Assembly: GCA_900208305.1 (NCBI GenBank)
Contig: OAPG01000016.1
Span: forward strand, 496,001 to 560,000
Direction of reading: 5' to 3'
DNA: 64,000 nt
From: Melanopsichium pennsylvanicum
Taxonomy: Eukaryota; Basidiomycota; Ustilaginomycetes; Ustilaginales
The translations under genes were made by a program, and so were the position numbers. A model generated the notes under the pieces. It was not told where the DNA came from and ran no database searches. It worked only from the letters and a program-made list of their open reading frames with translations. This document shows positions 4,286 to 20,500 of this stretch, piece by piece. The number at the start of each line of letters is the position of its first letter. The first letter of the stretch is position 1.

Positions 4286-6366
4286 AACCCTCTGGGTAAT
4301 GTACTGTGGCTGCGCCGCATGTCGCTGTCAACGCTCCTTGATGGCACACACTCTCTCCACATTCAATTGAACGACGTGAGATGAGCCTTTCCTCTTTGCA
4401 ACCAAAGCTCCATCCTTCTGCAAGCGTTTGTTGTCGGGCATGAGCAAATAAGCATTTCAGACCCTGCGAAGCATGCAACCGCGTCCTCGCTTGCTTCTCT
4501 GCAGTATATACAGTAAATTTGCAACCCTCTCCGCCCCCCCCGACCACCTTTCTTTCTTTTTCCCTCTAGTCCGAATCGCATCAACGCCTCTAATGCCAAA
4601 GAGAGGAGCTCTCGCCATTCAGGGGTTCAATTCATACCTTCGGTTGACGCGAGCTTAGATTTCCGTTTACAATAATTTACACAGACACATGAGAGTTGGT
4701 CCATTGGTTTCGTGGTCCCTGCCAGCGCCGTCGTTGTGAAACTTTGGGAAAGAGTAAAAGCAGATCGGGTTTGGTCCGACCGATTTCACACTACAAATTC
4801 TCACCTTGCTGCCTTGCCTTGGCTGGCCCACTCATAGTCACAGAGTGCACTCGCCTCGTCAACGCTCATTCAGCAGTATAGTAATTGAAAAGTTATCCTT
4901 AGTTTCGGCAGCCGACCCCGCATACCAGAAAGTATGGCTTGCAAGCCTCTTTTTCTCACAGCCGCGGTATCCGACACCAAAGTACTATGGTACTGTACAC
5001 TCCTGAGTGTGAGACCCGAAACACGAGTCTGAAGATCCAACCGGAAAAGAGTAGAGTCTGAGTGTCGTGTTATCATTTGCCACGCCTGTCCAGCGCCATT
5101 CACGCTTGAAGACCAGAGAGATCCGACAGCAAAAACTTATTGTACCCTACACTTTGAGCGCATGCTGTAAAATCGCTGCATGACTGTAACGCTCAAGTCG
5201 CAATCTCTTGCGCTCGAGCGCAACATCGCGGCCAGTGCATTGCAAGCGACTTTTTGTAGACGTGCAAGGTCAGAATTGACAGCACTTTAGAGGAGTGACC
5301 TCGTTCGGCGGGTCCAGAATCTGGTCTCAGCGTAAATAGCACACGATCGCGATACCGGTATCCTGTGCAGTACCCAAAGCAAAAGCTAGAACGACGTGCA
5401 ATCGGCGCGGGCGGCATGGCAGCACCGCTCTGGACGCGAAAAGAGAGCAGTCAACATACCTTCTTACACTCTTCAGTGTCACTTCCCTTGCATCGGTGCC
5501 GCAAGACTCAGGCTCAATTGCTCTCACGCGGCACCCGATTGAATTGGATTGTAGTTTTTTTTGTAATCGAGATTAGAGACCAGCCTTTTCTCAATGAAAA
5601 TGCCGATTTGAAAATCTGTATATGTCACGTGCAAAGATTTGGTTGAATTAATCGATTGCTGCTTCGGATCGGTCGAATCGGATTTGGAGCACCTGGTCAC
5701 CCTTTTTCCTTCAAATCAGTGAAATCGGCGGATCAGCAGCCATCCAAATGCAGATTTCAAAAGGACCCAAATCACTAAAGGGAATTTGCTTCCGGATCTC
5801 GCGTTTGGCCGTTACCTGCTGTGCCTTCTGTGAAATCACAAAAACACCCCGCGATCGGGCGCTCTCGAAGCCTCTGAATCCAGTGATCCCGCCTCTTCCC
5901 TTCTTAGCCTCCTCCCACTCATCGTTACCTCGTTAGGTTCTTCTTCGGGATTGCCTACATCTTTTGTCGCCTTGGTCGCTTCTTGGCTCTCAATCCCATC
6001 CGCCAAACGTCTCATCCGATCCATCGCTTTTTCTCGGCGGCAATACGTCGCGCCTCTCTCTATCTCTGTCTCTCTCTCGTCTCTCTGACAAAGTCGCGTC
6101 ACTCACCGAGTCGTTGGTTTTGTCAAGGATTGCCCAGGGTTGATCAGTGAAACCCTTGCCGAACCATCTCATCTCCGACAGCTTGATCGCAACTCGCATC
6201 AAGTGCTGAATTCTACTTATTTTCAGCGTTTTGCGCATCCATTATCGACCACTTTCAGCCGGAAATCGACGTGTTCACACGCGACATCCGTCACGCGTCG
6301 GATCTAGCCTAAACTTCTTCTCTCTTGTTCTCACACTCTTTACGAATACCTACAAACTACCACGCA

Positions 6367-8121
6367 ATGTCCAGCGAAGCCACTGCACCCGTCACTGCAG
6401 CTGCTGCTGCTCCCGCGTCGGTCGGATCCGCCGACCAGACTGCACCTCCATCGGATTTCGAAGCGTCCATTCTTGGAAACAAGGATATTACTGCTTCTGA
6501 AGCCGTCGTTGAGCAACAACAACAACAAGAACCACAACAATCACAACATCAACAAACTTCTGAACCCGACAATTCTGCCCCTACAGACACCACCGAACAG
6601 GATGCTGCCGCTGTAGCTGCTGCCGCCGCCGCCGCTGCTGCTGCTGCTGCTGCCGACGCGTCTAGCGCTGCTCAGACCATCACCGAACTGGCCACTGCCG
6701 CTACCAACGCGGCCAATAGCGTGTCCGGCGAGGTCTCTACGACCGAACAGCCTATCGCTGAAGCTGCTTCTTCTGCCACGCAACATCCAGACCAAGCTGC
6801 TATCGCGCAAAACGCATCTGCTGCTAACACGATCAATGATGCTGACAAGGCTCAAGTTGTAGCTGAGGTTACGACTGGCGAGCCTAATGCCGAAGCAAGA
6901 ACTTCCGCAACTGAGCAAGACGGCGTGACCGCTCCTGCTGCTGCCGCTGCTGCGGAAGAGACTACATTCGGCCTTCCCCGTAGCATCGAGTCCGAGCTGC
7001 GTGACATTTACTCTGTCTCGAGCGCCATTGCGAACTTCTGTGTCGCCCACGTTAATCAGGTTAACGTCCCCACGCCCCAAAAAGTGCGCACCATCATTCA
7101 AAAGGCTCTCAAGCTTACCTCTTCGCTCAGTATGCTGCTCGCACAGCCCGAGGTCGCTCTTCGCCAGCTCGACGCCGACGAGCACGGCAAGCGTCCCGCC
7201 GAGTCCAAGCTCGACTCTGCGCGCAAGCGTCAACGCTCTTCGGACTGGGATGGTAACAAGGTGGGGCCTGGTACCCCTGGTCTTCCCATGGCTCCCTACA
7301 CTCCCAACTCTGGACTTCGTGTGTTCCCTGATGGCTCGCTTCCAACTTCGTTCCCCTCGGCTGGGTTTGACGGCGATGGCAAGGGTCCGCAGTATAAGAA
7401 GCGCAGTCGTGCTCCTGCGCCTGGTTCCTGCCAAGCTTGCGGTACTAGCGAGACGCCAGAATGGCGAAGAGGTCCCGATGGCGCGCGTACGCTGTGCAAC
7501 GCTTGCGGTTTGCACTACGCCAAGCTCGTTCGCAAGCGCATGCAGCAGGAGGGTGTGGAAGAGCCTTCTCCCAGTCATGCACAAGCTCAGGTCAGCTTGG
7601 TGAGCTTGGAGGAACTTCGCGCTTCGACCAAGAGTGCCGAAGCGGCTGCGGCTGCCGGTTTGACCTCGTCAGGTTCGTCTAGCTCTCTCAATGGTACTCC
7701 TATCAAGGGTGGCCGTAGTGGTGGTGGTGGTGGTGGTGATGCATGGAATACTCCGAGTAAGCCACCCCGTGTGCCTTCTAGCCTGAGCACGAGTGTTCTT
7801 GCTTCCAGCTTTGATGCAAGTAATGAAAAGCAGCAAGAGCACCAGCATCAGAATAGCAATGGTGACGAGATGGCTCCTCCTCCGCCTGCGCCAGAGACGA
7901 GTGCGGCTCAAACTTCAGGGATTGTTGAGCCCGGCCCAACTCCCGCTATTGCTGAGGCTCAGCAACATGAACAACAGCAGCAGCCGGAGCAACAGGAAAT
8001 TCCGGATTCGGTAATTGCTCCTGAACTTGCTAACGAATCGGTTCCAGCTACAATCACAGCTACGGCTGCTGCTAGTGTCGGTGCGGCGGGTGATGAAAGG
8101 CCGATGGAGACCGATCAATAG
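6367..8121 (+). CDS. GATA-type zinc finger transcription factor, NsdD-like
   Basis: Predicted 584-residue nuclear DNA-binding regulator. The GATA finger is C355-x2-C358-x18-C377-x2-C380 with [15 protein letters not shown] and [11 protein letters not shown], the form found in the NsdD/SUB-1 group, which controls sexual development in ascomycetes. About 150 residues upstream (residues 203-260) lies a helical block beginning [13 protein letters not shown], which also resembles a region preceding the finger in NsdD proteins. The N-terminus is rich in Ala and Gln, with poly-Ala near residues 80-97. The C-terminus is Ser/Gly/Gln-rich and disordered. The start at 6367 was chosen over the in-frame ATG at 6325 because MSSEAT matches a normal hydrophilic N-terminus and follows a CACGCA context. 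No intron is needed. The role in smut mating or development is inference. Confidence 0.88.
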
Positions 8122-8670
8122 ACGTGAAGAAGGGTATGACAGGAGAGGTTGGCTTAACGATGGTTCTTCTAGCCTTTCGGTACTTGTTTTTTGTTTTTTT
8201 GTTTTTTTTTTTTTTTGTTTTTTGTGTTAGGGAATGCCTTTAATTTTTATTTATTTATTTATTTATCTTTTGTGTTTGTTTTTGTTTTGTGATTTGTATG
8301 TCACTATGTTATATAATCACGAATACAGGTATGTCCAGTTTTTTCTTATTTTACAGTAGATGTAGAGTGATATTTTTTGATGATGCTAATTGGATAACGT
8401 TTCTTTAAAGGGGGAGATGCCAGGTTGCGCATGATGAAGAAAATAAAAGAAAAGGAAAAAAAAAATCAAGATTGCGGTGCAAGGTGTAAAAAGCATAGCT
8501 AGAAAAAATGATTTCAGAGGTGAAGAATGCGATGTTTTTGGGTGAGATGGTAGAGTATAAATTGATATTTTTTTTCTTCTTCTTTGGTTCTTTCGGTTTA
8601 CTACTAGATGAGGAAAAAATGTGTTAAGAAAATAGTGGTTCTCAAAATGAAAAGGGTAAGGTGCGGTTAA
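8122..8670. other. AT-rich intergenic region between convergent genes
   Basis: Holds T-rich runs (about 8185-8225), an ATTT repeat near 8245-8265, and likely the 3' UTRs and polyadenylation signals of the convergent GATA and SDR genes. No gene seen. Confidence 0.7.
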
Positions 8671-9639
8671 TTAAGGCTTCCAATCGTATTTAGGTTGCCA
8701 ACCAAGAACCTTTTTAGCTTTTTCGTTACTAAGCACAGTGACGTTGGGATCATCGTTCAAAGGTTTGTAAGGTACATCTGGGAACACTTGTTGTACCAAA
8801 TCCTTTGATGATGTTTTCATGACCGTATTGTTGTTAGCAATAATAAATGCGTGATGACCTTTCAAATCTTTTTTCTCCAGTGCCAATTTGATAGCTTCTG
8901 CACCATCTCTAGCATCAATATAACCCCAACAGTTCCAGTATCTTTTCTTGACATCATCTTGCCATGATTCAAAAGTTGCATATTCCTCCTCTAACATGAC
9001 ATTTGAAAATCTCATACTGACGATTTTCATTTCACCACCCGTGGGATTACGATGCGATTGTTTTGACCAACGACAAAATTGTTCTGCCAAAGTTTCACCC
9101 ACAAGTTTCGAAAGCGAATACGCACTTTCTGGTAAGAGCGGCGATTCCTCGGTAATGGGCAAGGAACTAGGTTGAATATCTAATGGGATACCAATCAAAG
9201 TTTCGCTACTAGCAAGCACTAGATTTGTAATACCAAGCTTTCGTGCTGCTTCCAGAACGTTGTACGTAGAAGAAACATTGGTGTTGAACTGTTTCGAAGA
9301 CGAACTCTGACCAGGACTAGGCATAGCCGCAAGGTGAACTATGGCGTCAATTCCTTTATAGGCCATATCTACCTCCATGAGTGCTTCGAGCACTTGACCC
9401 ATATCGCTAAGGTCGATCTCTACAAGTCGATAAGCACCACCAATTCCGGTTTTGCCATCTTCAGAGGCGGTTTTGGGTCGAACTCGATCAAAGTTGATAA
9501 CTTCGTACCCGGAAGCCGCAAGGTGTGCAACGGTGGCTCGTCCAAGTTTACCACTTCCGCCAGTAACGACGACGCGTGGCTTGACGCATCTAGTAGATTC
9601 ACCAAGCGCAAGGGGGACAATTTGATTCGTAGAGGACAT
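8671..9639 (-). CDS. NAD(P)-dependent epimerase/dehydratase, extended SDR family
   Basis: 322 residues. A Rossmann dinucleotide-binding motif TGGSGKLG lies at residues 26-33 after a short N-terminal extension. The downstream acidic residue D51 in NFDR suggests NAD preference. The extended-SDR catalytic set is present: SSE near S144-S145, Y174 and K178 in YSLSK, with the HLAAMP strand at 102-107. The C-terminus ends in an LGWQPKYDW substrate-domain motif typical of UDP-glucose 4-epimerase-like and uronate-dehydrogenase-like enzymes. The substrate, presumably a sugar or sugar nucleotide, cannot be told from the sequence. The codon usage is more AT-rich than that of the neighbouring genes, which may reflect low expression or transfer. 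Cytosolic, since no signal or membrane segment is seen. Confidence 0.85.
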   Translation of the reverse strand: MSSTNQIVPLALGESTRCVKPRVVVTGGSGKLGRATVAHLAASGYEVINFDRVRPKTASEDGKTGIGGAYRLVEIDLSDMGQVLEALMEVDMAYKGIDAIVHLAAMPSPGQSSSSKQFNTNVSSTYNVLEAARKLGITNLVLASSETLIGIPLDIQPSSLPITEESPLLPESAYSLSKLVGETLAEQFCRWSKQSHRNPTGGEMKIVSMRFSNVMLEEEYATFESWQDDVKKRYWNCWGYIDARDGAEAIKLALEKKDLKGHHAFIIANNNTVMKTSSKDLVQQVFPDVPYKPLNDDPNVTVLSNEKAKKVLGWQPKYDWKP

Positions 9640-10716
9640 TTTGATGATGAAGCGATGGATCGTATCAAGTGTGATGGAACAATGTTAAAACCAAATTAGA
9701 AAGTGTGGAGTACTTATAGAATTGCAGCGTCAACACTACGTCGACCCGTCTCTGTGGCACACGAGAAGATGTTCAAGATAAAAAAAATATGTAAGAGAGG
9801 AGACTCGCATGAAGACCGCCAGTGGACCGGGAACCTTGGCAAAACAAACACCCCAACAGTAACTTACTCTGCTCCAGATTCATGGATGGCACGAGGCGGC
9901 GCATCACAACATGCACGAGGCTCAAAACACCCAAAGTGGAATTAGAGTAGGTGACTATGACGGCAAACTGAAGGGGGGGAACGATTCCTGAATAGATTGC
10001 CGAAGCTGAAGGTTTCACGAACTTTCACACACATAATTAACGGTACAGATTGGGATTGTGTCTTTTCCGAGGAAGCAAGTGGAAGCAATTCGAGTATTGG
10101 TCGGAGCGATGGTCACCATGACTGCATTGTGAATGTTTGTGGAGAGTCGCCGGTCTGAAACGGATGACACCGCTCTTGCCCTGTACAGTCTATGTGGAGA
10201 ACAAGTAGGCGTCAAGGCGTAAGAAAATGGGCAGAAAAGAGTAACGTCATTTTGCGCACTCCTGACAAAGCGTTTGCCGAGAGTTACAGTATAAGGCCCA
10301 TACCAACTTGAGGCGGACAAATTTGATTGATTTGAAAAAACAAAATTAATCGGGATCTAACATAAAATTCCAAAAGAAATAAAATCAGGGTTGAGAGTGG
10401 CCAATCACCCAATGAGACCACCATCAGACACTATATTGGTAGTTGGACAAAACACAGATCTTTTATCATACTGTCACCGATTAAGGATGTTCTCCTGTTG
10501 AGACTCAAAGCCCCAACCATCCATTGAGCTCTATTGTCTCTTCAGATTACAGTTCCCCATGTATTATGTGTCCTGTGAGAGATCTGCATACAAGAGCAAT
10601 GTGAGATTAAGAGCTTGACAAAACCAGAATGCATCTCCAGGCTCAAAACAAACCAGCTGTTTTTGCTGGTGTGCTGGCAGTCATTGTGTTGATTTCTGTC
10701 TATGCAAGTGAGTGAG
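9640..10716. other. Intergenic region ending at the retrotransposon insertion; short signal-peptide-like ORF at its edge
   Basis: The first 200 bp are presumably the SDR promoter. No recognisable gene follows until an ATG at 10629, whose 28 codons read like a secretion signal: a polar start, a hydrophobic core VFAGVLAVIVLISV, then YAS. A consensus donor GTGAGT lies at 10708-10713 and a TGA at 10713-10715. The retrotransposon begins two bases later. This could be exon 1 of a secreted-protein gene broken by the insertion; see findings. Confidence 0.45.
10712..10716. repeat. Target site duplication GTGAG (left copy)
   Basis: Five bases directly before the left LTR. The identical GTGAG follows the right LTR at 18328-18332. 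A 5-bp duplication is usual for Ty3/gypsy integrases. Confidence 0.92.
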
Positions 10717-11146
10717 TGTTAAGGCTGTAGGGTCTAGATACCGCGGGCGGCTACAGCCGGGATGGAGGCTACGGGTACGGAGAGGTCGTAGGCGGGGCAA
10801 CACAGGCGGTCGGGGGTCAGAGCACACTACTGCGTTGCTATAGAGCTAACTAAGTAATACATGCGACGAGGTCCGGAGGCAACCTCATGTCAGGCGGGGG
10901 CGGGGTGGTAAGGTACAGGAACTATCGGTCACTTCCCACCGCGGCGTTACAATGTTAGGTTGCCGACGGTCGTATCCTACGTACGGAGGGGCCAGCCGCG
11001 GTTGGGCGGTAGGAGGATCATGTCAGGCCGACCGCTCCGCTGCGAGGGGTCCGGAGAGGGTCGGTCGGGGCCCGATCACGACGATCGCTCAATCGGGAGG
11101 GAGGCCGAGCACCCCCTCTTTGGACTCCGGTTGGTAGGCACTAACA
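10717..11146 (-). repeat. 3' LTR of the chromovirus (left copy)
   Basis: 430 bp, TG...CA ends (TGTTAAGG...CACTAACA on the plus strand). Differs from the right copy by four transitions. In the plus orientation it sits upstream of the antisense gene's TATA box and could contribute to its transcription. Confidence 0.95.
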
Positions 11147-11155
11147 TTACCCCCC
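11147..11155 (-). promoter_or_regulatory. Polypurine tract (plus-strand primer site)
   Basis: On the element's sense strand GGGGGGTAA abuts the 3' LTR. A purine run at this place is the usual primer for plus-strand synthesis. It is short, so the call rests on position. Confidence 0.6.
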
Positions 11156-11380
11156 GGTTCAGGCCGACTGGTCCCCAGGCGGCTGATAGGACAGGAGGGC
11201 GAGGGGGGTCGTACTCCCTCAACCTTAATCCGCGCCAGGGGCGCCTCTCTGTACAAGTTGCGACGCTCGTCTCGGCAATTTAATCGCGGATGCGCAGCAA
11301 TGAGGCAATACCACCCACAATGCCTTGGACCGGCGGAATTGACTGTGCGCCATTGCTCGTGCGTAGCTATCGAGGAGGGA

Positions 11381-11386
11381 TATAAG
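11381..11386 (+). promoter_or_regulatory. TATA box of the antisense passenger gene
   Basis: TATAAG in a GGGATATAAGG context, 69 nt upstream of the ATG at 11450 and followed by a pyrimidine-rich leader (TTCCTTCTCGATTTCCCCC). It lies inside the element and is directed opposite to gag-pol. Confidence 0.55.
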
Positions 11387-11449
11387 GATGGGGTTTGACG
11401 GGTCTTCCTTCTCGATTTCCCCCATTCTTCCCCATTCTTTTTTTTCGCA

Positions 11450-12904
11450 ATGTCGTCGCCACCAGCAGACGCTTCCTTGGATTGTCTTTTTTTTGCAATG
11501 TCGTCGTCACCAGTAGACGCTCCCATGGATTCCCCGGCCGACAACCCGTCGGCCGGTGTCAGTACCGTTCCCCCTCCATCGCCTACGTCCGCGACGGCGG
11601 CAGCGTCGGCAACAGCAGCAGCAGCAACAACAACAACAGCACCAACAACAACAACAACGTTACCCGCTTCCGGAGGTGAGTCGATCGTGGTTCCGTCGTG
11701 ATTCGGTTGCGGATGGGGGCCCAGAGGGCCTGACAACCACCGGTCGGTGCCGTGGAATGGGTTACTGACGTTTGTTCCCTCCCCCTTGTTTCGATTACGA
11801 CAGATTGGCCGTTGGAGACCTCCGCTGGTCCCGTCCGGGGGGTGCGCCGTTCTCCGCGCGCTCACCTTTCCCGGGGGGCCAACTCGGGCCGTCGCGAGCG
11901 CGCCGTGCGTCAACAGTCTGCCGATCCGTCGGCCATTCCTTCCTCTGCATCGACCAACACTTCCCTCGTCCTGGCGCCCCGGAATTTCATGCCGTGGTCG
12001 CGTCCTTCGGTTCCCATCGAGATCACTCCGGAACTCGTTGGTGATGGTAAGTATTTGTTCCATTGCTGTGTTGATTGGGATCGCTACTGACGTTTGTGTT
12101 TCCGTGGCCGATACGACAGACCTTGCCCCGCTATGGGCCGAGACGTGGGACGATTGCTACGCCTGCGTATGCGCCGGCGTTGCCTGTGAGCGGGCAGGAG
12201 GCGATCTCCGCTGCCGTCGGTGTCAGGGGCACCACGGGCAACCCTGCGACGCGGATATGCGCGGTAAGTATTTCCGTCGGGCGTCTGTCGCGATGTCTTG
12301 GGTGGTCGGCTGACTCTTGTTCCTCCTTTTGTTTTCCTCGACAGTCCCACCACTTGGCGGCGCCCAAGGTCCCCTCCGAATGAGGGTTTACGCGTGCTTG
12401 CTTGAGAGGTGGAGGTCCGGAGGGGTCGGTCGGCGTCGCCGCCCCCACCCCAACGTCAGGTTGTCGCTGAGGACACTTGGCGAGATCCCGGAGGAGGAGG
12501 AGGAACTGAGGGAGGAGGTGGCTCGGGTGGGCGCGGTGGGTCGGGAGCGGGAGGCGGCTCGCAAGCGAGCTAGGTCCCGCCCCAACCGTCCAGCCGAGGC
12601 TGCCCGAGAGCGGCGCCGCACTCGGGCGCGGGCCCAAGGCCAGCCGGAGGAGTCCGCTACGGGCCTGGGGGATCTGGGTGCGGCCGTAAGGCGTGCCAAG
12701 TCCCTCTTCCACGGGGTGCAGGAGGGGACTGAGTTATTTCAACAGGGGCTGGCCAACGTGGCTGCGCTGTTGCTGACAGAGTCGCTGAGGACCGGCGGCG
12801 AGCGAGAGCTCCGCCGGATCAGCGAGATCCAGCAACTGTCGCAGAACACGCGACAGCAGGTGGACGTGGTCTGGGCGTGGTTGGAGGGCTTCCTGAGGGA
12901 CTAG
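11450..12904 (+). CDS. Antisense four-exon passenger gene of the retrotransposon; zinc-cluster-like protein with helical C-terminus
   Basis: Exons 11450-11675, 11804-12046, 12120-12263 and 12345-12904 join in frame to 390 residues. Introns of 128, 73 and 81 nt have GTGAGT/GTAAGT donors, CTGAC branch sites and CAG acceptors, and all are phase 1. Residues 1-75 are Ser/Pro/Ala/Thr-rich; 76-156 are basic and disordered. Exon 3 encodes C169-x2-C172-x6-C179-x8-C188-x2-C191-x7-C199, the spacing of a fungal Zn(II)2Cys6 cluster, but without the usual basic residues in its first half. Exon 4 encodes Glu/Arg-rich helices, likely coiled coil (about residues 240-300), and a C-terminal helix around LFQQGLANVAALLL. 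Transcribed against gag-pol and convergent with pol (183 bp between stops). Function unknown: DNA binding or control of the element are inferences. An alternative start is 11498. Confidence 0.72.
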
Positions 12905-12952
12905 CCCCGGGGCCCCTCCTCGAATGCACTTGTTTTCTTTTCTGTCGCTTGC

Positions 12953-12978
12953 GTGTGTGTGTGTCTGTGTGTGGGAGT
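12953..12978. repeat. TG-rich microsatellite between convergent passenger gene and pol
   Basis: Imperfect TG repeat after the passenger gene's stop, before the pol stop. It probably lies in the overlapping 3' UTRs. Confidence 0.8.
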
Positions 12979-13087
12979 GGGGGTGAGGGGAGCCCGACCG
13001 GGTCTCCTACCCCAGAGGTCGGGGACCGGAGGGGTTTTGGCTCCGGCGGGGGGGTCTCCCGACGGCGACCGTCGCTCGTAATCGTGC

Positions 13088-16000
13088 CTAACGCCGGGTA
13101 GGGGCCGGCTTGGTCGGGTTCGCGGCGTGGTACGCAGCGACCAGATCCGGGGCGCGGTCCACGTCTTCCGCCGGGACCCAGCTTGGGGGGTACCCTACCC
13201 AGGAGACCTTGTACTGTAGGCGTCCGGCGCGGCGGCGGGAGTCCAATACGCCCTCGACTTCGAAATCGGCGTAGTCGTCCTCCAGAGTAGTCGGTTGGGG
13301 GGCGTCGCTGGACTCCCTGACTCCGTCGGGGTATGGCTCCAGCATCTGTACGTGAAAGACGGGATGGACCTTCCACGACGGAGGCAGGAGGAGTCGGTAG
13401 GCTCGGTCGCTAATCACCTCGTCGACTTTGAACGGGCCGGCGAGGGGGTTGGAGAGCTTGTGGGAGGGTCGGTCGCTGCGGAGGTGCTTGGTACGGAGGA
13501 GCACCAGGTCCCCCCGGCGGAACAAGACGTCGCTCCTGCGACGGTTAAACCACTTCGCAACGGCAAGGTTGGCTTTGGCGATGGCGTCCTGGCACACCCG
13601 CACTTTATCCGCCGACGGAACGTTGGAGGTGGCCGGGGGGATGGAGGGGTGTGCCCGAGGTGCAAATGTGAAGCAAGCTATAGCCGGGGCGATGGTTGTG
13701 GTCGCCGACGGTCTTTGGTTCAGCGCGAGCTGGGCTGTCGGCAGGAGGGTTGCCCAGTCGCTGTGGTCGTAGGCCGTATAGAAGCGGAGGAACAACTCCA
13801 GCGTCTGGTTGGCTCGCTCGGTCTGGCCATTTGTTTGAGGGTGGTAGGCCGACGAGTAAGACCCTTTAATCCGGAGGGCCCGGAGGAGTTCCGTCCAAAC
13901 GGAAGCTACAAACGTGGTTCCTCGGTCAGATACAATGGTGTCCGGGAGGCCAAAGTATGAAAAGACGTAGCGGTGGAGCTGGTACGCCAAAGTCTCCGCC
14001 GTATCGGTTTTGTTTGCAGGAATGAAGACCACAAACTTGGTGAGGCGGTCGACGACTACGAGAATGGAGTTGTAGGTGGTGCCGTTGGCAAGGGAGGGCG
14101 GGAGGTCAGTGATGTGGTCCATGGTAATAGTGGACCACGGCCGATCGGGAGGGACCGACGGGAGAAGGTAGCCGTGGGGTTTGTGACGGGGGTGTTTTGC
14201 CCTTCGGCAGGCCGCGCAAGAGGCGACATAGCTGTCGGTGTCCTGCACCATGGTTGGCCAGTAAAAACGTTGACGCATGAGATGGAGGGTCGTCTTGCGG
14301 CCAGGATGTCCCGCCGTAGGGTGGTCGTGCAGTAGGTGGAGTGCCTTGTCCCGTAATTGGGGTGGCAGGTAGACGTGACCCTCTGTGGTGTACGGGACAC
14401 CATCGCGGACGGCAACGTTTGGGGGGAGGTTGGCCGCTTTCCGGAGGGTTTTGATCCACTCCGTAGGCAGGGGGTCCGAGGAGTGTACGCCGGCTGCCCT
14501 TGCGAACAAGTTTGCAGGGAGGAGAGTGGCTTGGTTGGCGGGATCTGGGCGCGACGGTCCGTCGGGGAACAAGTCGTGCCGGCGACTCAGAGCGTCGGGG
14601 CGGACGGCCTCCTTACCCGGACGGTAGTGGAGGACGAAGTCAAACTCAGCCAGGTCGGCTTGCCAGCGGGCTTGGCAACGGTTGAGTTGTCGCTTCGTCT
14701 GAAAATACTGGAGCGCTTGGTGGTCGGTGTAAATGAGGAACGGTCGGGTGAGGCCATGGAGGTAGTGTCTCCAAGCGCCGCAGGCGTCTACGATAGCCAG
14801 GAGTTCCTTGTCGTGGATTTTGTAGTTACGCTCCGCCGGGATCATCTTTCGCGACCAGTATGCCACAGGATGGAGGGTATGCGAGCGGCTGTTGGGCTCG
14901 GCGCTCGCGTCGGCGCCCAGCTGTGGGTGCCACTGCGACAGCACGGCGGCTACCACAGCATCGCTCGCGTCTGTTTCGACGACGGTGTAGAGCGTTGGAG
15001 AGAAGTGCCGGAGGATAGGGGCAGAGGTGAACGCTTCTTTCAGCCGGTTGAAGGCTGCCGTTGCTTCCGGGGGCAGATCTACCTTTCTGGAGGCTCCTCC
15101 TTTCAGGAGCTCGGTGAGGGGGGCCGCTACACGAGAATAGTGGCAGATGAAGCGACGGTAGAAGTTGGCAAATCCGAGGAAGACTTGGATCTGTCGGATC
15201 GACTGTGGTGGCGGCCACTCCAAGACTGTACTGACCTTGGTCGGGTCCATGGAGAGGCCGTCGGGACTGACGAAGTAGCCGAGGAACTCGACGGAGTCGG
15301 TGTGGAATTCGCATTTGTCCGGAGCGCAATACAGCTGATGCTTCCGTAATTGATCCAACACTTGGCAGACGTGGTGGTGGTGGTCGGCCTCGTTGTCGGA
15401 GAAGACTAGGATGTCGTCCAGATATACGATGACGGACACGTCTAAGAGATCCGACAGCACGTGGTTCATGAGCCGTTGGAAGGTCGCCGGAGCGTTGCAG
15501 AGGCCGAACGGCATGACGAGGTATTCGTAGCTGCCGTAGCGCGTGCGGAATGCGGTCTTCCATTTGTGGCCGGGGGCGATCCGGAGGAGGTTGTAGGCAC
15601 CCTTCAGGTCAAATTTAGTGAAGATCTTGGCCGTCGCCAGCCGATCAAGGTGTTCGGAGATGAGGGGGATCGGGTAGCGATCCTTGACGGTGATGGCGTT
15701 GAGGGCGCGGTAGTCCACACACGGCCGGAGGCGACCGTCCTTCTTTGGTACAAAAAGAAGGGGCGCGGCAGCTTGGCTACTTGACGGTCGGATGAAGCCA
15801 ATGGCCTGCATCTTCCGGAGGTAGTTCCGGAGCTCCTCTTGTTCGCGGTGCAACAGGGAGTAGAGTGCGCCGTAGGGAGGGGTTTTGCCAGCCTCCAGGT
15901 TGATCTCGTGGTCGTGTGGGCGGTGGGGAGGCAATTGGTCGGCCCTCTCGGCGTCGAAGACGTCGGCGTACTCGCGGTACTCTGGCGGTAGGACGGCGAG

Positions 16001-16657
16001 GTCGGTCGCGGAAGCTTGGAGGGGCAGTAGCTCCTCTTCCGGTTCTGGGAGGACCAGCAGGTCCTCCTCAGTGGAGACCAGCTGTCGCCGGCCGACCAAG
16101 TTGTGGAGTTTGTTCTTTTCGATTTTGGGGTTGGAGGGCACCGTGACGGTGTGGGGGACCCGGAGGTCCCACGTATGGAGGGTATAGTTTGGCTCCGGCC
16201 TGGCGGCCTCGATCCAATCCATCCCCAACAGCACGTCGTGGGAGGTCATGGGGGTGATGAAGAGTCGGTGGCGTGAGGTGATGCAGTGGTTGTTGATGAT
16301 GATATCCACCACCGCGTGGCGACTGATGGCGGCCGACATGCCCTGGAGGAATGTGGCGTGGACGGATTTACGGAGGGAGTGGGTAGGAATGTTGGCCGTC
16401 GCGACCATTTCGGGAGTAATGAAAGAGGCGGTGGCGCCGGTATCGAGCAAGGCAAGGCCTTGCGTGTCGCCGACGCTTACCAAGCATTCGTAGGTTGGTA
16501 AGGTAGGGTGTCGATGGATCCGGAGAACGGATCCCTCTTGCTCCACGACGGGAGTGTCGGTCCGGTGGGCTGCCCAGAATGCTGCGGCGAGCACCCGGAG
16601 CTGGCTTAGGTTGTCGATGGGTTCGGACCGAAGGAACCCATCGACCCTTAGTTTCCC
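13088..16657 (-). CDS. pol: Pol polyprotein: protease, reverse transcriptase, RNase H, integrase, chromodomain
   Basis: Open from the frameshift site to the stop at 13088, about 1,190 residues. In order: aspartic protease (LLDTGATASF); reverse transcriptase with the FVPKKDGRLR and YLDDILVF catalytic motifs; RNase H (ETDASDAVVAAVLS); integrase with an HHCC zinc domain (H..H and CAAC) and a DDE core (MDHITDLP, SDRGTTF, then NGQTERANQ containing the glutamate); a GPY/F-like module (PLAGPFKVDEV); and a C-terminal chromodomain (EGVLDSRRRAGRLQYKVSW with WVPAEDV). The chromodomain, which directs integration to marked chromatin, places it in the chromoviruses. There is no in-frame ATG near its start; translation is expected by -1 shifting from gag at GGGAAAC. 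No stop or frame break seen, so the enzyme set may be functional. Confidence 0.93.
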   Translation of the reverse strand, partial: GKLRVDGFLRSEPIDNLSQLRVLAAAFWAAHRTDTPVVEQEGSVLRIHRHPTLPTYECLVSVGDTQGLALLDTGATASFITPEMVATANIPTHSLRKSVHATFLQGMSAAISRHAVVDIIINNHCITSRHRLFITPMTSHDVLLGMDWIEAARPEPNYTLHTWDLRVPHTVTVPSNPKIEKNKLHNLVGRRQLVSTEEDLLVLPEPEEELLPLQASATDLAVLPPEYREYADVFDAERADQLPPHRPHDHEINLEAGKTPPYGALYSLLHREQEELRNYLRKMQAIGFIRPSSSQAAAPLLFVPKKDGRLRPCVDYRALNAITVKDRYPIPLISEHLDRLATAKIFTKFDLKGAYNLLRIAPGHKWKTAFRTRYGSYEYLVMPFGLCNAPATFQRLMNHVLSDLLDVSVIVYLDDILVFSDNEADHHHHVCQVLDQLRKHQLYCAPDKCEFHTDSVEFLGYFVSPDGLSMDPTKVSTVLEWPPPQSIRQIQVFLGFANFYRRFICHYSRVAAPLTELLKGGASRKVDLPPEATAAFNRLKEAFTSAPILRHFSPTLYTVVETDASDAVVAAVLSQWHPQLGADASAEPNSRSHTLHPVAYWSRKMIPAERNYKIHDKELLAIVDACGAWRHYLHGLTRPFLIYTDHQALQYFQTKRQLNRCQARWQADLAEFDFVLHYRPGKEAVRPDALSRRHDLFPDGPSRPDPANQATLLPANLFARAAGVHSSDPLPTEWIKTLRKAANLPPNVAVRDGVPYTTEGHVYLPPQLRDKALHLLHDHPTAGHPGRKTTLHLMRQRFYWPTMVQDTDSYVASCAACRRAKHPRHKPHGYLLPSVPPDRPWSTITMDHITDLPPSLANGTTYNSILVVVDRLTKFVVFIPANKTDTAETLAYQLHRYVFSYFGLPDTIVSDRGTTFVASVWTELLRALRIKGSYSSAYHPQTNGQTERANQTLELFLRFYTAYDHSDWATLLPTAQLALNQRPSATTTIAPAIACFTFAPRAHPSIPPATSNVPSADKVRVCQDAIAKANLAVAKWFNRRRSDVLFRRGDLVLLRTKHLRSDRPSHKLSNPLAGPFKVDEVISDRAYRLLLPPSWKVHPVFHVQMLEPYPDGVRESSDAPQPTTLEDDYADFEVEGVLDSRRRAGRLQYKVSWVGYPPSWVPAEDVDRAPDLVAAYHAANPTKPAPTRR
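16613..16657 (-). promoter_or_regulatory. Programmed -1 ribosomal frameshift signal (slippery heptamer plus hairpin)
   Basis: On the sense strand the heptamer G GGA AAC (16651-16657) is in the gag frame and is followed at once by the gag stop TAA (16648-16650). The pol frame is -1 relative to it. After a 5-nt spacer a perfect 12-bp hairpin follows: arms GTCGATGGGTTC and GAACCCATCGAC, 9-nt loop (16613-16624 and 16634-16645). Heptamer type, spacing and stem fit the canonical retroviral -1 signal; GGGAAAC is a known slippery sequence. Confidence 0.82.
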
Positions 16658-17858
16658 TCCGGGGGATCCTCCGAATCCGATAGGTCACTGTTGGGGTTGG
16701 AGGCTGACCCGTCATCCATGGGGTTGACGAGTATAGTCCCGGAATCGTTGTCAAATGAAATAGCATGTGCCCGGAGAGTTTGTGTTTGGGGTGCCTTTGG
16801 GCAGTCACGGGCCAAATGGTCGCTGCCACCGCAGCCGAAGCACTGCCCGTTGGTCCGTCGGTGCTGGCGGAGGCGTTCCGCCGCATCACGCGTAGGGTCC
16901 TTGGCCGGTAGTGGAGGTCGTTCCATTTTGCGGGGTCCCTCCGGAGGCTCTTGTTTGGCCGTCGCAGCTGTGACTCCAAGGGTCTTGTCGTGGCCTCCTG
17001 TATCACCTGCATCCGGCGCTCCGTGACAATGGCGGCGTTGATGAAGTCACGGATGTCGGTCATCGGCACGTGGGTGAGCTTTTCCCGTAGGCGCGGCCGG
17101 AGGCTTTGTTCGAACAGCATCAACGCCTGCTGCTGGTCGGTCAGGTGCGATTTGGCCGTCAGCGACATGAACTCCGCCGCGTGCTCCAATACTGATCCCT
17201 TCTGGCGGAGGGCATTCAGTTGGAGGCGTGCGGTGTAGCTGGGGTCGGGATCGCCATGGACGCGACGGAGGTTGGCGCAGAAGGCCCTCCAGGAGCTCAT
17301 CCAGGGCGGATCCTCCCCCTCCTGTTGTCGCACATTGCGGATGCGGGTTCGTGGTTTGCCCGTCATGTTGCCAATGGCAAACATGATGCGACAGGCATCC
17401 GTCGGAAACTTGGAGGGATTAGCCTCGAAGTTGAGTTCGCATTGATCCAAGAAGTCCTCCAGTTTGTCTTGGCTGCCGTCCCATTCCGGAGCCTGGAGTC
17501 GAATCTCTGGCTTGCGGGGCGCGGCCTCCACGTAGACGGGGGCTACGGTTGGCGGGGGGACCTGGGCAGCGGTTGCTCCTTGGTAGTGCTGGGAAGACTC
17601 CGGTCTAGGTTGATCCTCCCTGGGGAAGAAGGCGGCCTCTAGCAGAGCGGTAATGCGCCGCTGTTGTTCAGAGGTTTCATGCAGAAGCGCCAGGATATCC
17701 ACTTGCCCTTGGACCAAGGTGGTCAGGGCGGCGGGCGGTTCGCCCGAGGGTGCAACAACGCTGGCGGGCTCGTCTCCGCTGGGGGAGATGGTGGGAGCGT
17801 CTCCCTCCGCTTGGGGGGAGGCGTCCGTTTGGTTTTGTCGGTTGGAGCGTGTACTCAT
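16648..17858 (-). pseudogene. gag: gag with CCHC zinc knuckle, apparently broken by an internal frameshift
   Basis: Starts with ATG at 17856-17858, 39 bp inside the 5' LTR. The first ~290 residues read as a normal Gag: a disordered Ser/Pro N-terminus, then a capsid-like retrotransposon gag domain (WDGSQDKLEDFLDQCE, SWRAFCANL) ending near IQEATT at about 16,990. The zinc knuckle CFGCGGSDHLARDC (CX2CX4HX4C) and the acidic tail that meets the frameshift signal are in a different frame (-1 relative to the first part), entered between about 16,995 and 16,940. The N-terminal frame stays open to 16,368 but gives non-Gag-like sequence there. No slippery heptamer lies in the overlap, so a small indel or an assembly error is more likely than a second programmed shift. 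Confidence 0.8.
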
Positions 17859-17886
17859 CTTGGTTACGACGTCGTCCCGTGGGGAG

Positions 17887-17897
17887 GTCGCATGTAA
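17887..17897 (-). promoter_or_regulatory. Primer binding site, probably for self-priming
   Basis: Directly inside the 5' LTR the sense strand reads T TACATGCGAC. It does not begin with TGG as tRNA-primed sites do. The ten bases TACATGCGAC are exactly complementary to GTCGCATGTA inside the LTR (18039-18048, sense direction 18048 to 18039), the arrangement used by self-primed elements of the Tf1/Skippy type. Confidence 0.65.
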
Positions 17898-18327
17898 TGT
17901 TAAGGCTGTAGGGTCTAGATACCGCGGGCGGCTACAGCCGGGATGGAGGCTACGGGTACGGAGAGGTCGTAGGCGGGGCGACACAGGCGGTCGGGGGTCA
18001 GAGCACACTACTGCGTTGCTATAGAGCTAACTAAGTAATACATGCGACGAGGTCCGGAGGCAACCTCATGTCAGGCGGGGGCGGGGTGGTAAGGTACAGG
18101 AACTATCGGTCACTTCCCACTGCGGCGTTACAATGTTAGGTTGCCGACGGTCGTATCCTACGTACGGAGGGGCCAGCCGCGGTTGGGCGGTAGGAGGATC
18201 GTGTCAGGCCGACCGCTCCGCTGCGAGGGGTCCGGAGAGGGTCGGTCGGGGCCCGATCACGACGATCGCTCAATCGGGAGGGGGGCCGAGCACCCCCTCT
18301 TTGGACTCCGGTTGGTAGGCACTAACA
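17898..18327 (-). repeat. 5' LTR of the chromovirus (right copy)
   Basis: 430 bp, should contain the promoter for gag-pol. The sequence GTCGCATGTA at 18048-18039 would lie at the transcript 5' end if self-priming is used. Four transitions separate it from the left LTR. Confidence 0.95.
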
Positions 18328-18332
18328 GTGAG
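18328..18332. repeat. Target site duplication GTGAG (right copy)
   Basis: Matches 10712-10716 exactly. Confidence 0.92.
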
Positions 18333-20500
18333 ACCAGATTGGCTATGACGCCCATCAGAAATTTCTGCTGCAATCCTTCAAGCATGAGCATGGTTGGATG
18401 ATCTAACTGCAAGCATGAATGGACGCGAGCTTCGCACCAATGATGAGGCCGCAATGAAAGTTTACGCCAGTCATCCTTCCAACAACCATGCTGTAGATTT
18501 ATACATTGGTATATGCAGTTATACAGTGGTTTTTGTGAGTGTGTGCTCTGTGAGAGCAAAAGAGAGGGAGCTGCAGTATGGGTCTAAGCGATGCTTCCAA
18601 CCTGCAGACATCCGAGAGAGAAAACCACGCTAAACGTCTTGGCTGCGCATTTTGGTGCAATGCCAAGACTTTCTCTTTGCAATCCAACAATGCAGACCTA
18701 AGCATCAGTCACATAAAATCAACATCGCTATTTTTACTGACCACGCTCTCCGATCCGGTTGCATGTCAAAGACGGCACAACTACAAATGTTCCGTCTCTT
18801 CTCACGCTCACAAGGCATGGTTGCGCTTGCATCCAACGGTGACCCAACACCTTCACCCACCGAAAGTGACAGCAAAAAAGACAGATAACAGTTGCCATGC
18901 ATCGCTTCAAAGGAAAACGTCGTTCCGGTTAGAAAGAGAAGTTATCCATGCTGAAGCGAGACCGAACTCACTTCAACCTAAGGCACTGTATCTCTTGCTA
19001 TATTGGGCAAATGTATGCCAGAATTGAATTCTCTGCGTTGGGTTGTGACTGCTTTCCGGAACGTCGGATGAACTTAACCGTCGCAGCAGTGTTGGACCCC
19101 GATTCCATGTGCGGCATTCAAGCACTACTTCTTCATAGCCTAGTTGTCGACTGAAACTCCGCCTAGTGGAATTATACCCCCGCTCATACAGCTCTTCGTC
19201 TTAGTAAAGTGATAGTAATTTCCCTCATCTTTCCGCCCTTTGAATTTTAGCATATTGGATATCAGTGCAAAGTCCAGCCGCTGTTGGTCGGGAGATTGAT
19301 GACAACCAAGCTAGCGTAGATCCGATTTGAGCCCAAGTGTACGGACGTTGGTCTTCCGTTGAGCCTATCTTCCATCCTTGCTAACAGCCATTGGACTGCT
19401 TGCCATCGAAACAACGATCCTTCTGTCGCTCTTCTTTGACACGAGTATTCTGAACAGATCTGCTTTGGGGTGTCCATTGGTCTCAACGCCTTGTTAGCAG
19501 AGCATCTTTGACTCAAACTACGCGCGTAGTCCTTCTTGCCTTCAACACGGAATAAGGCTATCTTGGCTTCAAAACAAGCGGCGCTTCGTCTCGCCCGGCA
19601 AGACAAGGTGCTGTTGCCAAGGGTCCACTTCGTAAGCGAAGCTGCTCGCAGGATACTCTCCGGATTACCATCGTCTGTTCTCCACAAATGACCGATACAA
19701 ATGCTGGGGGCGGTTAAGTACGGATGAGACCATTCCGACGTGCTTCCCAACTAACCCTCTTCGCACGAATGCAAACCAACACCATCTAAGACGACCGATA
19801 AGCTCAGGTTGCTACGTTAATGTACACATGTCGTGACCACTCACCCAACCTAGGCTGCATATTTACCGAGGTTATTCCAATGTTTTTCTTCTAGGCTTTG
19901 TGTGTATCGCTACTCTTGTAATGGTATGTCGGCTTTGTCATCAAGTGTGCACATTTAAAGTGGATGTCTGATGAAAAGTGCTGCCGAAGGAGAGCTCGTC
20001 TATAGAATGGTTGCGTGCGGAGGATGGATCGCCGGACTTGGATGTGTGGCGCCACGTTTTCCGTTGCTCGCTATGTAGACCGTAGTGCAAATTTGTCTAT
20101 GTGTCAAACGATATCCAGGGCGGCTGATACCGAGCATAGTACACGAGAAGCCTCTATAGTAGCACACGAGAAATTGCTTCCATCAACAGAGGCGCTCACA
20201 CCCCCATGTCAGACTCTGGGACGGAAAGATCAACAGTCGAGTCTGAGCCACACAGGTGTCAAAGATGTCTCACTTGTCCACTTACCAGAAGATCTGATAC
20301 TGTACCGGGTCTAGCTCCCCATGCTCAAGTATCAAGTGACATAGAGATCATCGTTGAGTAGCGCAAAGATATAAGATGAGACATGCTTGACGATATCTTT
20401 CTCCTAACCCCATCTCACCCTCCAACACACTCTACTTCGCCACCCAATTCCGGAAACCCCTGTAGAACTCGAACTTTTCCCTAGAATCAATATCTAAAAG
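18333..20500. other. Intergenic region right of the retrotransposon, no clear gene
   Basis: A 70-codon frame starting near 18418 contains a hydrophobic stretch (YIGICSYTVVFVSV) but no family resemblance. It could be the remainder of the gene split by the insertion. A minus-strand open frame of 162 codons at 19262-19750 lacks an ATG at its start and was not recognised. The last 150 bp before 20501 are the pyrimidine/AC-rich leader of the metalloprotease gene. Confidence 0.5.

Follow-up and report, generated by a model that had tools for sequence, protein, structure and literature searches.

Organisation of the element and its antisense gene

The window, a stretch of 64,000 nucleotides (G000:C16:496001-560000) from the 21.1-Mb genome of the smut Melanopsichium pennsylvanicum (Ustilaginales), contains a 7.6-kb retrotransposon in minus orientation (10717-18327) that carries an additional gene between pol and the 3' LTR, on the strand opposite to gag-pol. 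The LTRs are direct repeats of 430 bp located at 10717-11146 (3' LTR, minus strand; TGTTAAGG...CACTAACA) and 17898-18327 (5' LTR, minus strand). They differ by 4 mismatches (0.93%), three of which are of the CpG type as judged by eye. The target duplication GTGAG is present at 10712-10716 and at 18328-18332, the latter adjoining the 5' LTR. The pol frame extends from stop to stop over 13088-16684 (minus strand), and Pfam domains for protease, RT, RNase H, integrase and chromodomain were found on 13088-16594. The LTRs with their target duplication, the order of RT-RNase H before integrase and the chromodomain identify the element as a Ty3/gypsy chromovirus. The gag region (16648-17858, minus strand) contains a zinc-knuckle-like motif, CFGCGGSDHLARDC, recognized by eye. 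In the window copy gag is spread over two frames and pol lies in a third, and P0007, the 1577-aa protein annotated for another copy, bridges the same places where the frame changes; the gag frame breaks in the window copy may reflect recoding, splicing or damage. No Rfam match at the gathering score was obtained for 10700-18400. The host neighbours of the element, at 6325-9639, are an ORF on the plus strand with a GATA-like zinc finger, seen by eye, and an NAD-dependent epimerase on the minus strand.

The antisense gene consists of four plus-strand exons which join in frame to 1173 nt encoding 390 residues and a stop, as the preliminary description of this locus had proposed. Exon 1 (11450-11675), which codes for a region rich in S, T and A, is followed by intron 1 (11676-11803, 128 nt), exon 2 (11804-12046), intron 2 (12047-12119, 73 nt), exon 3 (12120-12263), intron 3 (12264-12344, 81 nt) and exon 4 (12345-12904). 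Exon 3, at 144 nt, is frame-neutral and codes for a cluster of seven cysteines, while exon 4 codes for basic stretches and a predicted C-terminal helical hairpin and ends with the stop codon. All three introns are in phase 1, with donors of the form GTGAGT or GTAAGT, a CTGAC branch-like motif and the acceptor CGACAG, and unspliced read-through of the gene runs into stops. The antisense gene and pol are convergent, with 183 nt between their stop codons. Duplication of introns was considered and rejected, only the branch-site region being alike between them, with scores close to the highest among 200 shuffles.

A TATAAGG motif (ATATAAGGAT) at 11381-11387 on the plus strand, noticed already in the preliminary description, is kept in all 35 aligned copies of the element, with the first ATG following 69 nt downstream; it may form part of the antisense gene's promoter. 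Both this motif and the coding start are outside the LTR. The first ATG itself, at 11450, sits in a 48-nt tandem duplication found in 23 of the 35 copies, which are the young ones, and to this extent the start assigned earlier needs correcting. The start common to the subfamilies is instead the ATG at 11498, which gives a protein of 374 aa and is missing in one copy (L057).

Conservation of the gene among copies of the element

When the genome was searched at the DNA level with 11148-13080, 40 of 89 candidates were scored and at least 48 matches obtained, at least 35 of them full length. The window copy and 34 others (L033-L066) were aligned; two partial copies and one piece (L067, L068 and L072) were left out. 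An open spliced frame is found in 33 of the 35 aligned copies, the two broken ones containing a 5-nt deletion (L050) and a stop (L054), and for this reason the gene can hardly be a product of chance. The splice dinucleotides are intact throughout, with the single exception of donor 1 in L049 (GT of intron 1 in 34/35 copies; its AG, and GT and AG of introns 2 and 3, in 35/35), and the CTGAC motif is present in every copy for each intron. Changes outside the dinucleotides were seen in donor 3 of L041 and donor 2 of L049. Of the 8 indel events in exons, 7 have a length divisible by three, and several reflect triplet-repeat slippage in exon 1; the four in introns are all of 1 nt.

No intronless copy was found among the 35 aligned, all of which keep the three introns. 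This fits the earlier proposal that introns of an antisense gene survive retrotransposition: the genomic RNA represents the other strand and does not show their splice signals in readable form, which would be why they persist. This suggests that retrotransposition can spread even a gene with several introns, provided that the gene is antisense to the element. One contiguous-looking match, at C8:514327-514950, was rejected as an intronless copy; it lies among inverted fragments, and its similarity to exon 4 does not begin before residue 25. In the surrounding region (G000:C8:514123-515678) pieces of the antisense gene, annotated as belonging to the gene model MEPE_03703 (P0005), have their order inverted around C8:514783.

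The linkage of the gene to pol was surveyed in 41 listed pol pieces of the element's family, from 180 candidates of which 40 were scored. In all 30 listed pieces that reach residue 1168, the end of pol, the antisense gene lies behind pol on the opposite strand, and all 19 full-length pol pieces are among them; the remaining 11 pieces are without the pol end. At C5:384893 the gene behind pol is split into two pieces 15.6 kb apart. As far as the listed pol pieces go, the antisense ORF belongs to most or all members of the family, and the presence of the gene in other copies, which the preliminary description had made a test of its proposal, is borne out. One of three related elements examined (L069, 56% RT identity) has a pol-LTR gap of about 450 nt with no ORF of 150 aa.

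Signs of selection on the codons

Since the 21-Mb genome offers at least 35 copies for comparison, selection on an antisense accessory gene becomes measurable. Standard estimates for the gene are weak. NG86 dN/dS over 34 copies is 0.61 and mean pN/pS is 0.62 (11 copies) against 0.37 for pol (12 copies). Codon maximum-likelihood omega for the antisense gene is 0.83 (2 delta lnL 2.7) and 0.91, neither different from 1, while for pol it is 0.35 (2 delta lnL 85.5, 12 copies) and 0.53, both significant. The weakness arises because CpG decay after insertion swamps the signal. In the introns and UTRs, CpG transitions were found at 32/65 cytosines and 28/65 guanines, compared to 19/141 cytosines and 14/176 guanines outside CpG, so that about 45% of CpG sites have a transition in some copy versus about 10% of other C or G. 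Such CpG-specific decay suggests CpG methylation of the element. DNA methylase domains are encoded at C21:458902 and C13:619851 of the genome in which the copies L033-L066 show this decay.

At CpG sites nonsynonymous transitions are no rarer than synonymous ones, neither in exons 2-4 of the antisense gene (N 65/147, S 25/72) nor in pol (N 99/410, S 46/260), and this lack of a deficit in both genes is as expected of decay. Outside CpG, transitions in exons 2-4 amount to 33/251 at synonymous and 16/442 at nonsynonymous sites (p=8e-6), a nonsynonymous rate about fourfold below the synonymous one. The same measure applied to pol as a yardstick gives S 53/927 and N 19/1819 (p=3e-12). The rate in introns (30/206) is close to the synonymous rate of exons 2-4, and the UTRs have 21/233 and 15/139. 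With the synonymous rate at the level of the introns and the nonsynonymous rate lower, purifying selection appears to act on the antisense protein during its ride in the element. The dN/dS check proposed in the preliminary description is ambiguous in its naive form (omega 0.83), and it comes out in favour of constraint in exons 2-4 when non-CpG transitions are considered. This suggests that naive dN/dS tests on genes of transposons can miss selection that CpG decay conceals.

The constraint is, in our reading of these substitutions, real but moderate and clearest in exon 2 (S 16/59, N 8/114, p=0.0008) and exon 4 (S 14/162, N 6/262, p=0.004). Exon 3 alone gives S 3/30 and N 2/66 (p=0.17), and in exon 1 no constraint was detected among the copies (p=0.2). 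For transversions outside CpG in exons 2-4 the deficit is not significant (N 21/1105, S 9/304, p=0.26). The other two sense frames have N/S ratios above 1; one of the three antisense frames has a ratio of 0.39 (p=0.0009), which we attribute to coinciding third positions. CpG variants found in two or more copies lean towards nonsynonymous (N 44/147 against S 11/72, p=0.02). When no correction for context is made, shared variants show no deficit (N 75 and S 36, with about 70 and 37 expected), and singletons do show a deficit of nonsynonymous changes (S 47, with 33 expected). Fixed differences between subfamilies comprise 7 synonymous and 2 nonsynonymous changes in exons 2-4 (P about 0.009, exon 1 having been left out after the fact), 9 and 6 in all exons (P about 0.03), and 12 and 10 in pol. 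Stop variants occur at 1-2 sites in the 34 in-frame copies, a count which excludes copies with a broken frame, while 6.3 were expected from the intron and UTR rates.

Features of the encoded protein

The antisense protein has an N-terminus rich in S, T and A, followed by the cysteine cluster of exon 3, the basic stretches RKRAR, RERRRTR and RRRR, and the C-terminal helices. The cysteines at residues 169-199 are spaced C-x2-C-x6-C-x8-C-x2-C-x7-C, a spacing that none of 20000 shuffles of the protein reproduced, and all seven cysteines encoded by exon 3 are invariant in the 34 in-frame copies. The Zn2Cys6 family (PF00172) is defined by the spacing C-x2-C-x6-C-x5-16-C-x2-C-x6-8-C, with which the six cysteines agree. 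The PROSITE-type pattern for this family includes basic residues as well, and in that form it does not occur in the antisense protein. No Pfam model, that of the zinc cluster included, matched the whole protein at E 1 or exon 3 at E 10. Of the zinc cluster described earlier the Zn2Cys6 spacing stands, and membership of the Zn2Cys6 family finds no support. The protein shares the spacing of six cysteines with the fungal Zn2Cys6 regulators, but unlike them it is without a Pfam match and has its cluster in the middle of the protein.

An AlphaFold2 model was obtained for P0001, a public protein of another copy which is without exon 3, from an alignment of only 4 sequences. Helices are predicted at 248-290 and 293-325, forming a block with pLDDT of 75-88, in agreement with the helical C-terminus noted earlier; the rest of the model is mostly below pLDDT 50 (overall mean 47, pTM 0.27). 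No Pfam family, bZIP included, matched the whole antisense protein at E 1. Weak sequence matches comprise a sub-threshold one of exon 4 to DUF4192 (E 0.15), a single NCBIfam match of P0001 (E 0.13) and 12 matches in the PDB (best E 0.019), which lie mostly on the low-complexity N-terminus.

Relatives and origin

A search of about 5.8 billion proteins, in which 8000 candidates per search were scored, each 0.55-1.75 times the query length, gave six matches, all from M. pennsylvanicum, and no foreign homologue among the candidates scored. An ORF of exon 4 alone in unannotated contigs could escape a search limited by length in this way, and no viral contig with exon 4 was confirmed. Four of the public models, MEPE_05065, 05912, 04496 and 00722, represent other copies of the gene and use exons 1, 2 and 4 while skipping exon 3. 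With exon 3 being frame-neutral, the skip may be a choice of the prediction or a real isoform. Within the genome no host paralogue was found: by coordinates, all 42 matches to exon 4 up to E=10 lie in or at element sequence, and all 44 matches to exon 3 up to E=10 lie in or at element copies or fragments. The suggestion that the gene is a host-derived regulator finds no support in these results. The pol proteins closest to that of the element outside M. pennsylvanicum are P0011 and P0012 (69 and 71% identity), and the nearest named smut relatives are from Pseudozyma flocculosa (53 and 58% identity).

At one locus (L081, G000:C3:504000-508400) an element fragment holding an LTR and exons 2 and 3 of the antisense gene is immediately followed by a Tudor-SN-like gene truncated at its 5' end, and the model MEPE_01710 (P0006) joins the two. 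The 481 aa of this Tudor-SN-like sequence are 100% identical to a copy within a 1030-aa frame at C3:188751-190193.

Comparison with known antisense genes

The brtn gene of Boty-like elements in Botrytis cinerea was reportedly described by Zhao in 2011. In the accessible parts of the published accounts, Boty of Botrytis carries brtn as an antisense gene (PMC7264820), its gag-pol contains a CHROMO domain (PMC4227169), brtn is treated as an additional ORF (PMC8365987) and a Monilinia transcript is similar to BRTN (PMC5987419). An antisense gene in a fungal chromovirus is therefore not without precedent (PMC7264820, PMC4227169). Like the element studied here, Boty is a fungal LTR element with a CHROMO-domain gag-pol and an antisense gene between pol and the 3' LTR; however, its host is an ascomycete.

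Antisense ORFs of the same place and orientation occur in many copies of the plant elements Grande (GENE23), RIRE2 and PvRetro13, whose introns, if any, go unmentioned in the accessible text of the source (PMC7264820). GENE23 of maize Grande is served by a promoter of its own, and its protein is nuclear (PMC7264820). The antisense ORFs of Retand, again at this place and in this orientation, have a TRP28 domain and are predicted to bind DNA (PMC11963269), but Retand belongs to a non-chromovirus plant lineage and the smut protein is without a Pfam domain. Spliced antisense genes at the 3' end of a retroelement are known from HBZ of HTLV-1 and APH-2 of HTLV-2, both nuclear regulators of their own LTR (PMC3185765). 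These are genes of retroviruses, their transcript begins in the 3' LTR, and HBZ has a bZIP domain, in contrast to the smut protein. Antisense accessory genes at the pol/3' LTR place are thus known from Grande, Retand and Boty, and what would be new here, as read from the gene structure, are the three conserved introns and the cysteine cluster of Zn2Cys6 spacing. A literature search leaving most subscription journals aside found no spliced antisense gene in a smut or basidiomycete element. The function of antisense accessory genes in LTR retrotransposons is still unknown according to PMC7264820, as far as that text is accessible.

Possible role of the antisense protein

The codons appear constrained although the mRNA of the gene cannot be the genomic RNA, which raises the question of how a protein encoded in antisense benefits the very copy that encodes it. 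The explanation we prefer, giving it about an even chance, is that the gene serves the element and that its product is a nuclear regulator of it. Transcription of the gene would start at a promoter of its own, close to the inner edge of the 3' LTR, and run towards pol, and the transcript would be spliced from the four exons into a protein of about 374-390 aa, kept because it helps the element. The basic stretches suggest that this protein enters the nucleus; exon 3 would bind zinc and the helices a partner, and the protein would act through chromatin or the LTR on transcription or integration of the element, as has been suggested for GENE23 of Grande and described for HBZ of HTLV-1. The nuclear location and the regulatory action are conjectures drawn from composition and from analogy. 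A more elaborate form of this regulator, which we consider unlikely, would be alternatively spliced: the phase-1 flanked exon 3 would be removable and the balance of isoforms would set the activity. If so, the form with the cluster would bind DNA or chromatin and the form without it only the partner, making the gene an independently evolved fungal counterpart of the spliced retroviral antisense regulators.

The same constraint on the codons fits a protein that serves the element in a non-regulatory manner, for example by helping to assemble particles, by bringing the DNA copy into the nucleus or by counteracting host silencing. A role in nuclear import has also been raised for such genes (PMC7264820, in its accessible part) and silencing machinery is present in the genome, but neither Pfam nor NCBIfam gave a domain match to proteins of these kinds, and we regard this possibility as open to some belief, though on the unlikely side. 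The antisense transcript could instead act as RNA, by convergent transcription, dsRNA, silencing or control of copy number, with the protein being secondary. The convergence of the gene on pol, with 183 nt between the stops, and the Piwi, RdRP and RNase III domains in the genome are in favour of this; it leaves unexplained, however, why the constraint is specific to the frame and differs between introns and exons, and why the splice sites are retained. As the main role it seems quite improbable to us; convergent transcription may act through RNA alongside the protein.

Introns of the host type and a promoter-like region of its own would suit a captured host gene that travels as a passenger and benefits either the host or no one. 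Against this are the constraint seen among copies, the confinement of the exon 3 and exon 4 matches to element sequence (44/44 and 42/42), with no paralogue in the genome, and the lack of a homologue in other species among the candidates scored, and we hold such an origin to be very improbable. An open frame with splice sites arisen by chance might be envisaged, since the region is GC-rich with other long ORFs on both strands and naive omega is near 1. The maintenance of frame, splice sites and cysteines over 35 copies, the codon-specific constraint and the use of exons 1, 2 and 4 in public models of other copies make it scarcely credible.

The Piwi, RdRP and RNase III domains are encoded at C13:453475, C22:390054, C2:820476-822256, C6:582118 and C23:98944; judging from these domains, parts of an RNA silencing pathway are present in M. 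pennsylvanicum.
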